This document shows positions 4,831 to 17,481 of a stretch of 37,517 nucleotides of DNA, piece after piece (position 1 is the stretch's first letter; each line of letters begins with the position of its first letter). The stretch lies in contig DQOF01000105.1 of assembly GCA_015658775.1 (NCBI GenBank), forward strand, positions 1 through 37,517, written 5' to 3'. Origin of the DNA: Acidimicrobiia bacterium (lineage in GTDB: Bacteria; Actinomycetota; Acidimicrobiia; Acidimicrobiales; MedAcidi-G1). The notes under the pieces were generated by a model. That model was not told the DNA's origin and searched no databases. It was given only the letters and a program-made list of their open reading frames with translations. The translations under genes and the position numbers were made by a program.

Positions 4831-6162
4831 CTACTTGAGGAAGCCCTCGTAGTTGCGCATGGTCAACTGCGAGTCGACCTGCTTCATCGTCTCCAGCGAC
4901 ACGCCGGCGGCGATGAGTATCGAGATTCCCACGAAGCCGAACCCTGCCGCTCCGGCACCCGCCGAGCCGCCGACACCTGAACTGGTGTCCAGGAACACGT
5001 TGATCATGATCGAGGGGATCAACGCCACGCATGCCAGGAACAGGGCGCCCGGCAGGGTGATCCTGGAGAGGATCCTGGCTAGGTAACGCTCGGTCTGGTA
5101 GCCGGGCCTGATCCCCGGCACGAAGCCGCCCTGCTTGCGGATCGTGTCTGCCTGCTTGACGGGATCGAAGGTGATCGCCGTGTAGAAGTAGGCGAAACCG
5201 ACTATCAGCACACTGGTGATTCCGAAGTAGAAGACGTTGTTGGGCTGGGCCAGGTTGTCGTTGATCCACCTCCTGAAGCCGTCCCACGGAAGGGCGGCCG
5301 CCAACAGCACGGGCAGGTAGAGGACCGAAGAGGCGAAGATGATCGGGATCACACCGGACTGGTTCACCTTCAGCGGAATGTAGGTGTTCTGCCCGCCGTA
5401 CATCCGACGTCCCACGACCCGCTTGGCGAACTGCACCGGTATCCGGCGCTGGCCCTGCTCGACGAAGACGATGGCGGCGACGAGGCCGACCAGCACCACG
5501 AGCACGATCCCCAGCGCCACCGGCCCGTTCTCGGCGTGGATCAGCGACCCCTGGGCCGGGAAGCTGCTGATGATCGAGACCATGATCAACAGCGACATGC
5601 CATTGCCGATGCCCTTCTGGGTGATGAGCTCGCCCATCCACATGAGCAGCGCCGTGCCGGCGGTGAGGGTCAGGACGACCAAGCTCACAGTTCCGATGTG
5701 GAAGTTGGGCAACAGGTTCGCACCCGACGACCCGCTGATGGAGTTGCCGCCGCTGTTGAACAGGAACGCGAAGCTCGTCGACTGGATGACCGCTATGGCG
5801 ACGGTCAGGTAGCGGGTCCACTGGGTGATCTTGCGCTGGCCCACCGCCCCCTGCTGCTGCCACTGCTCGATCTTGGGCACCACCACGCCCAGGACCTGCA
5901 TGATGATCGACGACGTGATGTAGGGCATCACGCCCAGGGCGAATACGGCGAAGGTCGTCAGCGCACCACCCGAGAACAACTGCATGAAGGCCAGCACGCC
6001 GCCCTGGTTGGCCCGGTCGCGCAGCAACTGGACCTGCTCGACGTCGATACCGGGCGCGGGCATGAAGGCGCCGACCCGGTACAGCAGGATCATGAGCAGG
6101 GTGAACAGGATCCGCTTGCGCAGATCGGCGACCCTGAACATGTTCAGCATGCTGGAAATCAC
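4831..6162 (-). CDS. secY: Protein translocase subunit SecY
   Basis: SecY is the channel subunit of the SecYEG translocon in the cytoplasmic membrane. The 443-residue protein has about ten hydrophobic segments, starting with ILFTLLMILLYRVGAFMPAPG and including the plug and lateral gate region after it. It ends with the family-typical MRNYEGFLK. The GTG at 6162 follows GGGAG at 5 nt and is preferred; ATG at 6150 gives an N-terminus closer to relatives but lacks a binding site. It lies 55 nt after rplO. Confidence 0.97.
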   Translation of the reverse strand: MISSMLNMFRVADLRKRILFTLLMILLYRVGAFMPAPGIDVEQVQLLRDRANQGGVLAFMQLFSGGALTTFAVFALGVMPYITSSIIMQVLGVVVPKIEQWQQQGAVGQRKITQWTRYLTVAIAVIQSTSFAFLFNSGGNSISGSSGANLLPNFHIGTVSLVVLTLTAGTALLMWMGELITQKGIGNGMSLLIMVSIISSFPAQGSLIHAENGPVALGIVLVVLVGLVAAIVFVEQGQRRIPVQFAKRVVGRRMYGGQNTYIPLKVNQSGVIPIIFASSVLYLPVLLAAALPWDGFRRWINDNLAQPNNVFYFGITSVLIVGFAYFYTAITFDPVKQADTIRKQGGFVPGIRPGYQTERYLARILSRITLPGALFLACVALIPSIMINVFLDTSSGVGGSAGAGAAGFGFVGISILIAAGVSLETMKQVDSQLTMRNYEGFLK

Positions 6163-11194: not shown

Positions 11195-12145
11195 TCAGTC
11201 ACCGTCCCCTGAGCGGAAGTGCGGTGTCTCGTGGTGCTCGCGGGTCGAAGCCTCGATGGCCTCCTCCTCGGCGAGCAGTTTCTCGAACTCGACATCGCCT
11301 TCCTTGACGAGCGGTGCCGGCTCTTCGGCAGCCTCCGGTACCTCCTCCGGGATCACCGCGGCGGGTTCGACCGCCTCGGCGGCAACCGTCTCCGGCGACC
11401 GGCGGCGAGCGGCCGCGGACGACGACACTACCTTGGCCGGAATGGCCTGTCCTGAGGCCTCACCGACGGCCATGGCGGCCTCACGGGTGATCTTGTCCTC
11501 GAACTGGCTCTTGTAGGGAAGGATGTCGCCCTTGTAGATCCAGACCTTCACCCCGATGCGGCCGTAAGTGGTACGGGCCTCGCGGAAGCCGTAGTCGACG
11601 TCGGCTCTAAGCGTGTGCAACGGCACGCGCCCCTCGCGGTACCACTCGGTGCGAGACATCTCGGCGCCGCCCAGCCGGCCCGAGCACTGGACCTTGATGC
11701 CGAGGGCACCTGCCTTCTGTGCGTTCTGCACGGCGCGCTTCATGGCACGCCGGAATGCGATCCGACCGGCCAACTGGTCGGCGACGCCCTGGGCGATCAG
11801 GGCCGCATCCAACTCGGGCTCCTTGATCTCCTGGATGTTGAGCTGGACCCTGTTGTTGCCGGTGATCTCGCCGAGGCCCGCCCGTAACCGGTCGGCTTCG
11901 CTGCCCTTTCGGCCGATGACGATGCCCGGACGGGCTGTGTGGACGTCTACCCGGATGCGGTCACGGGTGCGCTCCACCTCGACCCGGCTGATGGCAGCGT
12001 GCGGCAACTCGGTCATGAGGTACTCGCGGACGCGATAGTCCTGGATGAGGTTTTCCGAGTACTCCCTGCGGGTAGCGAACCAACGCGACTTCCAGTCGGT
12101 GGTTATCCCCAGCCGGAAGCCGTACGGGTTGACCTTCTGGCCCAT
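11195..12145 (-). CDS. rpsC: Small ribosomal subunit protein uS3 with long acidic tail
   Basis: uS3 lines the mRNA entry tunnel and has helicase-related activity with uS4 and uS5. The first ~215 residues are canonical ([20 protein letters not shown], the KH-domain segment [15 protein letters not shown], and [13 protein letters not shown]). About 85 further residues are rich in Glu, Ala and Pro ([20 protein letters not shown]), making 316 in total against about 210-275 in relatives. ATG overlaps the rplV stop by 1 nt. Confidence 0.97.
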
Positions 12146-12828
12146 CAGGCGTTCTCCTCTGGGGTTTCGGTGGATTCATCGACATCCGCATCGACATGGT
12201 CAGTGGCGGTATCGGCATCCACATCGACATCGTCCGGGGTGGCATCCACATCGACGGTTTCGACGTCGGTGGGGTCGGGCTCGACCGAGCCGTCGACCGC
12301 CTCCGGCGTGTCCCCGTCCGGCGTCTCGACTGCTTCGGCGGCCTCGGCTGCCTCCTCGGCCACCCGGCTGCGCTCTACACGCCGGCGGCGCGCCTCAGCC
12401 GCCTGGACGCTCGAACCGGCGCGACCCCTTGCGGCCGCCCGCTCGCGGATGGCGTCGAGTTCGCTGTCGGTATAGCGGTCCACGATGATCGTGATGTGGC
12501 ACGTGCGCTTGAGGATCCGGGTAGCTCGCCCACGGGCCCGGGGACGCCAACGCTTGAGAGTCGGTCCCACGTCGGCGTAGCAGGCCGTCACGTAGAGCTC
12601 CTCGGCGGCTATGCCGTCGTTGTGCTCGGCGTTGGCAACGGCCGAGTCCAGGCACTTGGCGACGACCGTGGACACGGCCCGCTCGGAGAACTCCAGGATC
12701 TCGGCGGCACTGCCATAGGACTTGCCGCGAATGAGGTCCAGGACCTCACGGGCCTTGGACGCCGAGACCCGGATGTGCCTGGCGACGGCCCTGGTGCCGG
12801 GCCGCTCGTTGGTCTTGGTCCCGACCAT
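12145..12828 (-). CDS. rplV: Large ribosomal subunit protein uL22 with ~110-residue acidic extension
   Basis: uL22 spans the 50S and its beta-hairpin lines the exit tunnel. The globular part (about 1-118) is canonical, with [40 protein letters not shown] and [20 protein letters not shown]. It is followed by a basic helical stretch (about 119-155) and then a strongly acidic, Asp/Glu/Thr-rich tail to residue 227 with short repeats of Asp-Val-Asp-Ala type. The family norm is about 110-150 residues. It overlaps rpsS by 1 nt. Confidence 0.96.
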
Positions 12829-13954: not shown

Positions 13955-14245
13955 CTAGACCTCGAACAAGTCGATCGAGTCACCCTCGACGAGGGTGACG
14001 TAGGCCCGCTTCACATCGGGCCGCCTGGTGACTGAGGGGTTGCGACGGTTCCGCTTGGTCTTGCCGTCGCGGTTCAGCGTGTTCACCTTCTTGACCCTGA
14101 CGTCGAAGATCGACTCGACGGCATCACGGATCTCGGGCTTGGAGGCCGACATGGCGACCACGAAGGTGTACACGTTGTCCTCGAGCAGGCCGTACGACTT
14201 CTCCGAGACGACCGGGTGGCGGATCACGTCACGTGCGTCTCTCAC
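13955..14245 (-). CDS. rplW: Large ribosomal subunit protein uL23
   Basis: uL23 is the main docking site for trigger factor and SRP at the tunnel exit. The 96-residue product has [20 protein letters not shown], an inserted loop with [19 protein letters not shown], and the terminal [18 protein letters not shown]. The GTG start overlaps the rplD stop by 4 nt. Confidence 0.96.
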
Positions 14246-14919
14246 TCTTCCTCCTCCTCGTCGGAGGTGGAGGGCACCTCAATGGCGGTCGCGTCCTCCG
14301 GAGTCCCGGCCTGCGCCGTGGGCAGGGTCGACCGGGTGAAGACCACCCAGTCGCTCACCAACAGGTCGTAGGCGTTGATCTCGCCGGGTGAGACGACGTG
14401 CACGTGGCCCAGGTTGGCGAAACTCTTCCAGGTGTTCGTGTCGTCACGCTCAGCGACGACCAGGACCCTGCCCTCGACTGCCAGGGCGGCCAGCGCGGAC
14501 ACGGCCTCCCTGGTCTTCGGGGCCTCGAAGTCCCAGGCATCGATAACGACGACCCTGCCCTCGGACGCCCTGTCGGAGAGAGCCGAGCGGAGGGCCAGGC
14601 GGATCATCTTCTTGGGGGTCCTCTGGGCGTAACTGCGGGGCTTCGGACCGAGCGCCACACCGCCGCCACGCCAGATGGGGGACCTGCTGGAGCCGTGGCG
14701 GGACCGACCGGTTCCCTTCTGGGCCCACGGCTTGGCGCCACCACCGCGGACCTCGGCCCGGGTCTTGGTGCTCTGCGTTCCGCTGCGGCGGGCCGCCAGT
14801 TGGGCGGTCACCACCTGGTGCATCACGGCCTTGTTGGGTTCGATGCCGAAGAACGAGGCATCCAGGTCGAGGGACCCGCTGTCGGCCCCGGCCGTCGTGC
14901 GTACGGTCACGCTCGCCAT
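14242..14919 (-). CDS. rplD: Large ribosomal subunit protein uL4
   Basis: uL4 lines the exit tunnel; in E. coli it also autoregulates the S10 operon. The product (225 residues from the ATG at 14919; a GTG at 14922 adds one) has the tunnel-loop segment TRAEVRGGGAKPWAQKGTGR and RSPIWRGGGVALGPKPRSYA. It ends in an acidic EEEEE tail beyond the usual end. The ATG overlaps the rplC stop by 1 nt (TGATG). Confidence 0.96.
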   Translation of the reverse strand: MASVTVRTTAGADSGSLDLDASFFGIEPNKAVMHQVVTAQLAARRSGTQSTKTRAEVRGGGAKPWAQKGTGRSRHGSSRSPIWRGGGVALGPKPRSYAQRTPKKMIRLALRSALSDRASEGRVVVIDAWDFEAPKTREAVSALAALAVEGRVLVVAERDDTNTWKSFANLGHVHVVSPGEINAYDLLVSDWVVFTRSTLPTAQAGTPEDATAIEVPSTSDEEEEE

Positions 14920-15560
14920 CACCGGCCACCCTTCACAGCGTCACGGATCAGGACGGTGGCACCTCGGGGTCCGGGCACCGACCCGCGGACCAGGAGCAGG
15001 CCCCGCTCGGAGTCGGTCTCGACCACCTGCAGGTTCAGCGTCGTGGTGCGCTGGTTCCCCATGCGACCCGGCATGCGCCTGCCCTTGAATACACGCGATG
15101 GCGTGGCGCACTGTCCAATCGCGCCCGGCTTGCGATGCACCTTGTGGGCGCCGTGTGAGGCACGCTGGCCCGCGAATCCGTGACGCTTCATGACACCGGC
15201 GAACCCCTTGCCCTTGCTGACGGCAGTCACGTCCACACGGGCCTCTCCGGCCAACGAGTCGACCGTGATCTCCTGACCCACCTCATAGCCGTCGACATCG
15301 TCGACACGCAACTCCACCAGGACCGGGCCGGGATCGACTTCGGCACCTGCGAAGTGGCCGGCCTCAGGGCGGGTCAACTTGTCGGCATCGCGTTGGCCGA
15401 ACGTCACCTGGAGGGCACTGTAGCCATCGCGGGCCACGGTCTTGATCTGCACGACGCGATTGGGAAGCACACGCAGGACCGTCACGGGTACAACGCGGTT
15501 GTCGTCGTCCCAGATCTGCGTCATGCCGACCTTCTCGCCGACTATTGCCTTGTTGGCCAT
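14919..15560 (-). CDS. rplC: Large ribosomal subunit protein uL3
   Basis: uL3 is an early assembly protein reaching the peptidyl transferase centre. The start at 15560 (AGGAG 5 nt upstream) gives MANKAIVGEKVGMTQIWDDD and a 213-residue product of normal length; the central loop GVMKRHGFAGQRASHGAHKV and HRKPGAIGQCATPSRVFKG is canonical. Unusually, rpsJ is not directly upstream: an opposite-strand permease gene and a promoter lie between, so rplC is the first gene of its transcript. Confidence 0.97.
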   Translation of the reverse strand: MANKAIVGEKVGMTQIWDDDNRVVPVTVLRVLPNRVVQIKTVARDGYSALQVTFGQRDADKLTRPEAGHFAGAEVDPGPVLVELRVDDVDGYEVGQEITVDSLAGEARVDVTAVSKGKGFAGVMKRHGFAGQRASHGAHKVHRKPGAIGQCATPSRVFKGRRMPGRMGNQRTTTLNLQVVETDSERGLLLVRGSVPGPRGATVLIRDAVKGGR

Positions 15561-15785
15561 GCTGGCTCCTGCGACTGGCGCTGGCGGCCCTCCCCGGAGG
15601 AGGTGTCCACCGAAATGGCCTCCTGGGGCCATTCACGCGAACGCTCCGCACGGAGGAACCCGGCGGAGCAGCGATTCGGTTGTGCCGTACGGTTCCACCC
15701 GGTGCCACGAGCGGAACCCGCGGGACGGACGGCCTGCACGGACGTCGGTTGTGGAACTCCGGACCCTCCGGAATTACGAAGGGTA
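15561..15785 (-). other. Long structured leader of the rplC transcript
   Basis: About 220 nt separate the predicted rplC transcription start (near 15779) from the ATG. On the minus strand several short perfect hairpins can be drawn: TCCGGA-GGG-TCCGGA at the 5' end, CTCCG-TG-CGGAG, AATGGCC-6 nt-GGCCATT, and CCTCC-TCCGG-GGAGG close to the binding site. No leader peptide is obvious. It may carry autoregulation replacing the leader normally in front of rpsJ; this is inference only. Confidence 0.4.
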
Positions 15786-15814
15786 ACGATACGGCCGACA
15801 GGCTCCGGTCACAA
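15786..15814 (-). promoter_or_regulatory. Sigma-70-like promoter for the rplC operon
   Basis: On the minus strand TTGTGA (15809-15814) and TATCGT (15786-15791) are separated by exactly 17 nt. They lie between the divergent rplC and permease genes. This is the signal needed to restart transcription of the S10-type genes after the interruption. Confidence 0.65.
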
Positions 15815-15861
15815 CCGGCAGGCCACAACCGGCCATCCCCACAGCGGAACCGGCAGGGGGT

Positions 15862-15905: not shown

Positions 15906-17060
15906 GTGGACCCCCCGGACGAGCAACCGACACCAGAACCCCGAGGTCAGATGGCGTTTTCGGATCCCGCCAACCGCCCACCGCCATGGGTCCGACGCGC
16001 GGTTCTGTCCCTTCTGGGGGGCATGGCCGCCCTCTGGTACCTACGGGGCGTCATCTCGTCCCTGCGCTCCCTGTTCCTGATCCTGCTCGTGTCGCTGTTC
16101 CTGTCCTTCGCCCTCGAGCCGGCGGTGAACCGCCTGGAGCGGCTGGGGCTTCGCCGCGGCGTCGGCACGGCGCTGGTCTTCCTGCTGGGATTCGGTGCCC
16201 TCGGCGGCTTCGGAATCCTGGTCGGAACCCTGCTGGCAGAGCAGGTAACGACTTTCAGCGACAACGTGCCCGGCTATCTGGAGGACATCGACGGATTCCT
16301 GGAGGACACGTTCGGCATCCCCGACGCCACCGCGGACCTGCGTGCCAATTACGACTCCGGGATGCTGGCCCAACGCCTGGGCGACGTCGCCGACGATCTC
16401 GCCAGATTCGGTACGACCGTCGTCAACGTCCTGTTCCAGCTCTTCACCGTGGGGCTGTTCACCTTCTACCTGCTTGCCGAGGGCCCCAAGTTCCGGCGCA
16501 CCGTGTGCACCCTGCTCCCGCCCCGCAGCCAGAGGACGGTGCTCGAGGTGTGGGACCTGGCGATCGCCAAGACCGGTGGCTACATCCTGTCCCGCAGCGT
16601 CCTGGCTCTTCTCTCCGGTGCGGTCCACTGGGCGGCGTTCGAGATCATCGGCCTCCCGTCCCCGCTGGCGCTCGCCCTGTGGGTGGGTGTCGTGTCCCAG
16701 TTCGTCCCAGTGGTCGGCACGTACATCGCAGGCGCCTTTCCGGTGGTGATCGGCCTGCTCAACGAGCCGGTCCACGGCCTCTGGGCCATCGTCGTCATAG
16801 CCCTCTACCAGCAGGTCGAGAACTACCTGTTGGCGCCCCGGATCATCTCCCACACCATGCAACTGCACGTCGCCGTGGCCTTCGGTGCCGTCATCGCAGG
16901 CGCAGCGGTTCTCGGCGTGGTCGGGGCACTCCTGGCCCTGCCTGCCGCCGCCACGATCCAGGCAGTGGCGTCGGCGGCAACCGGGCGCCACGAGGTGGCC
17001 GAGGAACTCCTGGCCGAGAGTCAGGTGCGGCGCGGCCAACCCGGGGACGACGCCACCTGA
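15906..17060 (+). CDS. AI-2E/UPF0118 family membrane permease inserted between rpsJ and rplC
   Basis: This is a member of the AI-2E transporter family (PF01594), multi-span membrane proteins linked in different members to autoinducer-2 export or Na+/H+ antiport; the substrate here is unknown. From GTG at 15906 (AGGAG 9 nt upstream) it has 384 residues; ATG at 15951 is the alternative start (369). Two hydrophobic segments near the N-terminus, a soluble middle part, then several helices and the family signature YQQVENYLLAPRIISHTMQ followed by a hydrophobic C-terminal hairpin are visible. It is transcribed opposite to every neighbouring ribosomal gene, is divergent from rplC and convergent with rpsJ. 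Base composition resembles its surroundings, so there is no sign of very recent transfer. Confidence 0.93.
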   Translation: MDPPDEQPTPEPRGQMAFSDPANRPPPWVRRAVLSLLGGMAALWYLRGVISSLRSLFLILLVSLFLSFALEPAVNRLERLGLRRGVGTALVFLLGFGALGGFGILVGTLLAEQVTTFSDNVPGYLEDIDGFLEDTFGIPDATADLRANYDSGMLAQRLGDVADDLARFGTTVVNVLFQLFTVGLFTFYLLAEGPKFRRTVCTLLPPRSQRTVLEVWDLAIAKTGGYILSRSVLALLSGAVHWAAFEIIGLPSPLALALWVGVVSQFVPVVGTYIAGAFPVVIGLLNEPVHGLWAIVVIALYQQVENYLLAPRIISHTMQLHVAVAFGAVIAGAAVLGVVGALLALPAAATIQAVASAATGRHEVAEELLAESQVRRGQPGDDAT

Positions 17061-17160: not shown

Positions 17161-17481
17161 TCAGACCTGCTGGATCTTGATCTCCACGTCGACCCCTGCG
17201 GGGAGGTCGAGGCGCTGTAGCGAGTCGATGGTCTTGGGCGAGGGGTTCAGGATGTCAAGCAGGCGCTTGTGGATGCGCATCTCGAAGTGCTCGCGGGAGT
17301 CCTTGTCCTTGAACGGGCCCCGTATGACGGTGAAGCGGTGCTTCTCCGTCGGGAGAGGAACCGGTCCGCGGATATCGGCCTGGGTGCGGTTGACCGTCTC
17401 GACGATCTTCTTAGCCGACTGGTCGATCACCTCGTGGTCATAGGCCTTGAGGCGTATTCGGATCTTCTGACCTGCTGCCAT
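17161..17481 (-). CDS. rpsJ: Small ribosomal subunit protein uS10
   Basis: uS10 is a 30S head protein and, as NusE, joins NusB in antitermination. The 106-residue product has [40 protein letters not shown] and the terminal [13 protein letters not shown]. It starts 13 nt after tuf, so it is transcribed with the str genes, and is followed by a terminator rather than rplC. Confidence 0.98.

Follow-up and report, generated by a model that had tools for sequence, protein, structure and literature searches.

The ribosomal-protein operon that begins with rplC in an Acidimicrobiia bacterium of the family MedAcidi-G1 is preceded by a conserved RNA element, which, as judged from sequence comparison, is a candidate new RNA family of a known kind, the ribosomal-protein leaders. 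The element lies on the minus strand of the window, i.e., the whole 37,517-nt stretch analyzed here (contig DQOF01000105.1 of assembly GCA_015658775.1). It consists of two covarying stems joined by highly conserved unpaired linkers, and among the sampled genomes it sits immediately before rplC.

Genomic context of rplC

The genes and signals around the element are as follows.

14242 to 14922, minus strand: rplD (uL4), with a 4-nt overlap with rplC
14919 to 15560, minus strand: rplC (uL3; PF00297), ATG at 15560-15558
15566 to 15570, minus strand: Shine-Dalgarno AGGAG of rplC
about 15906 to 17060, plus strand: AI-2E family transporter gene (PF01594), divergent from rplC
17122 to 17100, minus strand: terminator-like stem after rpsJ
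17161 to 17481, minus strand: rpsJ (uS10), after tuf

Downstream of rplD follow, in order, rplW, rplB, rpsS, rplV, rpsC, rplP, and others. A gap of about 345 nt separates rplC from the transporter gene, beyond which lie the str genes (S12, S7, EF-G, EF-Tu) and rpsJ; the transporter gene thus splits rpsJ from rplC. The terminator-like stem after rpsJ was the only one found in the scanned region, where 0.7 were expected by chance. The AI-2E gene is divergent from rplC in 36/36 genomes of the family with an rplC match, the 37th genome having no such match, and an AI-2E gene beside rplC turns up in some other families too. Two other proteins of the operon carry long C-terminal extensions (11195-12828, minus strand): uL22 (rplV ORF, 227 aa), in which the L22 domain is confined to residues 14-116, and uS3 (rpsC ORF, 316 aa), in which the S3 domains end at residue 203.

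A predicted promoter and leader for rplC

The features of the leader, all on the minus strand, are listed from the rplC side outward.

15589 to 15603: P4, a CCUCC/GGAGG hairpin before the ribosome binding site, found at the family level (by sequence and fold)
15614 to 15633: P3, the AATGGCC/GGCCATT hairpin, found at the family level, not universal
15627 to 15755: the conserved RNA element, core of the leader (covariance model of 115 positions)
15632 to 15641: conserved UUCGCGUGAA immediately 3' of P2
15642 to 15670: stem P2, 15670-15659 with 15654-15642, GCUCCGC/GCGGAGC plus an inner stem
15674 to 15684: conserved P1-P2 linker CACAACCGAAU (by conservation)
15684 to 15743: stem P1, 15743-15729 with 15698-15684, closing a variable apical stem (by covarying pairs)
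15755 to 15775: P0, a hairpin of variable sequence at the 5' end of the predicted transcript
15786 to 15814: promoter-like site (by sequence), -35 TTGTGA at 15814-15809, 17-nt spacer, -10 TATCGT at 15791-15786

Transcription is predicted to start at about 15779, which would give rplC a leader of about 218 nt. When counted from the predicted starts, the leaders of the family span 175-218 nt, and the preliminary description, which had spoken of a leader of about 220 nt, agrees with this range. It had also supposed that rplC begins a transcript of its own; the promoter-like site, conserved in the family, points the same way, and the predicted start lies far from the rplC ATG, which goes against a start close to that codon. 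A strict sigma-70 scan listed 0 sites, and hence not the promoter-like site at 15814-15786. With the looser pattern TTG-N18..22-TANNNT, a site was found within 80 nt upstream of the element in 36/36 family members (mononucleotide-shuffle mean 3.7, maximum 8) and in 59/137 leaders outside the family (shuffle mean 4.0, maximum 11). In the leader alignment, the promoter-like site and the RNA block are kept across six genera. The sequence CGGTTGTG occurs four times, two per orientation (15677-15684, 15746-15753, 15810-15817, and 15824-15831); one copy overlaps the -35 and one overlaps the conserved linker.

Structure and covariation of the element

The consensus of the element can be written AAYYGAYGU-P1-(variable stem)-GGGAACC-P1'-CACAACCGAA-P2-UUCGCGUGA. 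The two sides of P1 are conserved as AGGC and GGGAACC, and both the unpaired linkers and P2 show very high conservation. RNAalifold, applied to an alignment built from sequence only (A1), returned two stems, and the same two were recovered from a separate sequence-only alignment of 147 non-redundant elements. Over 23 named pairs, 94.7% of 1,147 cells are paired and 106 cells have changed on both sides; such changes fall in 14/23 pairs, and 0/500 shuffles reach any of five measures. For 100 sequences fitted to the model (A2), 95.0% of cells are paired, and two-sided changes affect 18 pairs and 282 cells, counts that lean toward structure because A2 was aligned to the model; A1 and the 147-sequence alignment are free of this lean. 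One row of A2, and hence of model R2, is the antisense partial match of locus L045.

In a tree-aware test, with a null of our own based on 40 simulated alignments rather than R-scape, the eight highest-ranking of 5,565 column pairs are all within P1 or P2, three of them at E of 0.025 or less and the other five at 0.1 to 0.25. Furthermore, the paired sites hold 83 G-U cells vs. 34 A-C cells, an excess expected if the RNA strand is under selection. The preliminary description had named an alignment and covariation search as its check and a lack of conservation in the stems as what would speak against it: positions 15627-15755 proved conserved and P1 and P2 covary. The leader of the window, folded alone, gives a modest signal (z -2.40, with 2/200 shuffles equally good), and the element folds better than its own shuffles in most of the 147 sequences (mean z -2.8).

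The CGAA of the linker (15678-15675) probably pairs with the UUCG after P2 (15641-15638), forming P2a. It is 81.7% paired, with 19 cells changed on both sides; shuffles reach the observed values 0/500 times on three of five measures, but 379/500 times on another, so that the support is moderate. The counts lend no support to an extra CAC/GUG pairing outside P2a.

The hairpins on either side of the element are more variable. A hairpin is present at the P0 position in each of 18 family members inspected out of 36. P3 and P4 are well formed in many family members and, over the whole set, weakly above chance (mean z -1.25, 135 leaders). Perfect inverted repeats, to which attention had been drawn from the sequence of the window, are indeed present at 15614-15620/15627-15633 (AATGGCC/GGCCATT) and 15643-15649/15663-15669 (GCTCCGC/GCGGAGC). 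The former, which had been singled out, is P3, a variable downstream hairpin and not the conserved core.

Distribution among genomes

Within its own genome, the element is the single match of model R1 at E up to 10 (E 1.9e-30). With model R2, 136/296 genomes of the class match at E 0.001 or better. Four genomes (G132, G259, G315, and G333) have weak matches only. A gap from 36.7 to 27.6 bits divides the listed scores, which leaves strong matches in 132 sampled genomes, 90/96 in the order Acidimicrobiales and 42/200 elsewhere in the class, as counted by hand on the assumption that the list of genomes without a match follows kinship. When more than 40 genomes are searched together, stricter filters apply, by which weak matches are lost. 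Among the six misses in the order, one assembly (G050) is without rplC, another genome (G189) yielded a weaker match when searched locally, and in the remaining four (G073, G314, G328, and G332) the model finds nothing within an rpsJ-rplC spacer of 160-384 nt.

Among the phylum genomes sampled beyond the class, 25 had weak matches at E 0.1 or better (best 4.7e-6). In 9/9 of those checked, the match lies away from rplC, and neither model finds anything at the rplC locus; these matches, considered as possible distant homologs, were therefore treated as chance. Three loci (L107, L121, and L123) have an rpsJ-rplC spacer with a P1-like fold by eye and without a recognizable P2, possibly degenerate elements. 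They may be P1-only elements, but a broader model detects nothing in these spacers; L107 has one weak broader-model match, inside rpsJ.

Scanned for an exact pattern of the element, 84,980 species genomes gave 54 matches on 53 contigs. According to their titles, 31 contigs belong to Acidimicrobiia, Acidimicrobiales, or Acidimicrobiaceae, 5 to Microthrix or Microthrixaceae, and 1 to Aquihabitans, itself a member of Acidimicrobiia; the rest are 12 unspecified actinobacteria, 2 titled "bacterium," and one each named Actinomyces sp. and Bifidobacterium breve. These final two are taken to be mislabeled metagenome bins; if the titles are right, they lie outside the class. The record of locus L292 (CAMDSG010000002.1), titled Bifidobacterium breve, carries the element, and its title is probably wrong. 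A cultured relative, Aquihabitans sp. G128 (L269), has the element as well. NCBI places IMCC26256 (L266) among the unclassified Actinomycetes.

Position relative to rplC and rpsJ

In a first sample of 61 related genomes, the element is directly upstream of rplC in 58/58 genomes with an rplC match; the other three have none. The RNA block is also upstream of rplC in 14 loci first drawn from other families of the order, and the element lies just before rplC in the eight remaining rplC-bearing genomes of the first sample. Loci L001-L050 and L104-L132 were fetched via an rplC search, and the free tests of position are the 118 loci retrieved solely with the RNA model and the pattern scan. Among the former, 117/118 are followed on the same strand by rplC, at a distance of 5-186 nt (28-34 nt in L217, L219, and L222, with antisense secondary matches set aside), and the remaining locus, L226, stops at a contig edge without rplC. 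In the pattern scan, 53/54 matches directly precede rplC.

The genome searches brought up one strong copy away from rplC. Locus L275 holds two copies 5 kb apart (97-221 and 5184-5296): the one before rplC scores 105.9 bits, and the other, an orphan duplicate beside an AI-2E gene, scores 88.0 bits and has two broken P1 pairs. Decay of the orphan is what would be expected if selection acts only before rplC, in a single case.

In the 68 loci with rpsJ in view, the distance from rpsJ to the start of the element ranges from 50 to 3,576 nt, and the element is also found between rpsJ and rplC where both remain near neighbors. In the 10 element-free genomes examined from the rest of the class, beyond the order, rpsJ and rplC overlap or are at most about 51 nt apart. 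The spacing in loci with and without the element indicates that the element accompanies an opened rpsJ-rplC junction, whether or not a gene has been inserted. The preliminary description had proposed that a leader normally upstream of rpsJ moved to rplC. This proposal is unsupported, both because the element occurs between rpsJ and rplC that are near neighbors and because the orphan duplicate is the only strong copy away from rplC.

Proposed function

We consider it likely that the element is a cis-acting ribosomal-protein leader, bound by a protein of its own operon, by analogy most likely uL4 or else uL3. In the proposed mechanism, uL4 (second gene) or uL3 (first gene) would bind P1-P2 when free protein exceeds 23S rRNA, and the bound protein would block 30S loading at the nearby rplC start. 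Translational coupling, through the 4-nt overlap of rplC and rplD, would carry the effect to the following genes, and the str block with rpsJ would stay outside the leader's control. On the precedent of the E. coli S10 operon, uL4 is favored and has about an even chance of being the ligand; uL3, favored by its position, is a possible but rather doubtful one.

Simple sequestration of the ribosome binding site is not a consistent feature of the leaders, since the mean unpaired probability of the site is 0.53 over 147 leaders. A 4-nt Shine-Dalgarno match is missing from 59/173 leaders, all among the 137 outside the family of the window. Hiding of the Shine-Dalgarno by the 5' arm of P2 (GCUCC with GGAGC) was rejected, as this arm is unchanged in genera that have AGGAAA or AGGAAC instead. 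A possible upstream reading frame, or an alternative rplC start in the same frame at 15632, was also considered; it is not conserved, and an ATG after P2 is found in 75/173 leaders. The 5' side of P1 resembled by eye the uL4 region of 23S domain I of E. coli, and this candidate sequence mimicry was dropped after a profile scan: at the level of primary sequence, none of ten element segments scored against two 23S genes beyond block-shuffled 23S, the uL4 site included. The best segment score was equaled in 9/100 shuffles and is not at the uL4 site.

A riboswitch-like trait of the element, the strong conservation of its unpaired linkers, counts against a ribosomal-protein reading, as do the four genomes of the order that have a spacer without a model match. 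The element may thus be a riboswitch-like RNA, through which a small molecule or another factor that is not a ribosomal protein sets the expression of the main ribosomal-protein operon. The very high conservation of the linkers and P2 speaks for this, as do the lack of sequence mimicry of rRNA and of any matching Rfam family; we nevertheless hold it to be quite unlikely, since the strong matches that could be placed sit before rplC and none before metabolic genes, and the same operon is elsewhere controlled by a ribosomal protein, as reported for its leader (PMC10931766). That the RNA directly senses a small molecule or growth signal, and so acts as a riboswitch-type master control over the class's main ribosomal-protein operon, is improbable to the same degree. 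A constitutive 5' structure, in which P0-P2 guard the mRNA from decay or fix its translation rate without a ligand, would fit the place of the element at the predicted transcript start and its folding beyond shuffles in most of the 147 sequences. A generic stabilizer needs stability, not near-invariant unpaired linkers, and we regard this explanation as unlikely.

Two further readings appear far less probable. The perfect 7-bp arm pair of P2 within a divergent intergenic region could suggest a DNA element, with P2 as a palindromic operator and P1 as flanking promoter DNA. The asymmetry of G-U over A-C cells at paired sites is not expected of double-stranded sites, P1 covaries and has bulges, and the element follows the promoter-like site and is also retained in loci whose upstream gene is rpsJ instead of a divergent one; the DNA reading is accordingly very hard to sustain. 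The P3 and P4 hairpins 3' of the element in the family are what a transcription attenuator with an intrinsic terminator, in the style of the E. coli S10 leader, might be built from. A T-rich tract after P2 is however present in just 10/173 leaders, and the scan listed no intrinsic terminator in the leader of the window, which makes such an attenuator highly improbable. Rho-dependent control of the leader is possible. A ribosomal-protein leader remains our preferred reading of the element.

Comparison with known systems

Rfam 15, searched at gathering scores over the whole window, gave four tRNAs and nothing else; at E up to 5, searches of 12 and 20 loci gave 4 and 3 weak matches, respectively, none overlapping the element. 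No description of it was found in the titles and abstract openings of open-licence PMC papers. It is on these two grounds, no Rfam 15 match and no description found in the literature so covered, that we call the element a new RNA family, probably of the ribosomal-protein-leader kind. It is well delimited and alignable. If its proposed function is true, it would give Acidimicrobiia, a class known here mostly from metagenome-assembled genomes, feedback control over their largest ribosomal-protein operon, and it suggests how a long str-S10 block, cut after rpsJ, gained its own promoter and RNA control downstream.

The first gene of the E. coli S10 operon is rpsJ, and its leader lies before rpsJ. 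There, uL4 controls the operon via this leader, through Rho-independent termination and control of translation that extend to the whole S10 operon, as described in the source cited (PMC10931766). The two systems, compared by description only, share a structured 5' leader on an mRNA with rplC, rplD, rplW, rplB, and onward, and the regulator protein may be the same (uL4). They differ in that the element described here comes after rpsJ and before rplC, with rpsJ outside the unit, and shows no intrinsic terminator.

Eckert and Weinberg (2020; PMC7247131) presented 20 new leaders in a paper from whose main text the string "Acidimicrob" is absent; the sole rplC-first leader among these is archaeal. 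This Archaeoglobi L4 r-leader candidate, borderline according to its authors and compared here by description only, is likewise directly before rplC, rplD, rplW, and rplB (PMC7247131). The Actinobacteria L17 and L31 r-leaders in the same paper are, like the present element, lineage-restricted, structured, and covarying, and belong to different genes (PMC7247131). Beside these, a uL4- or uL3-binding leader in Acidimicrobiia would be a further case of different RNAs evolving to be read by conserved ribosomal proteins.
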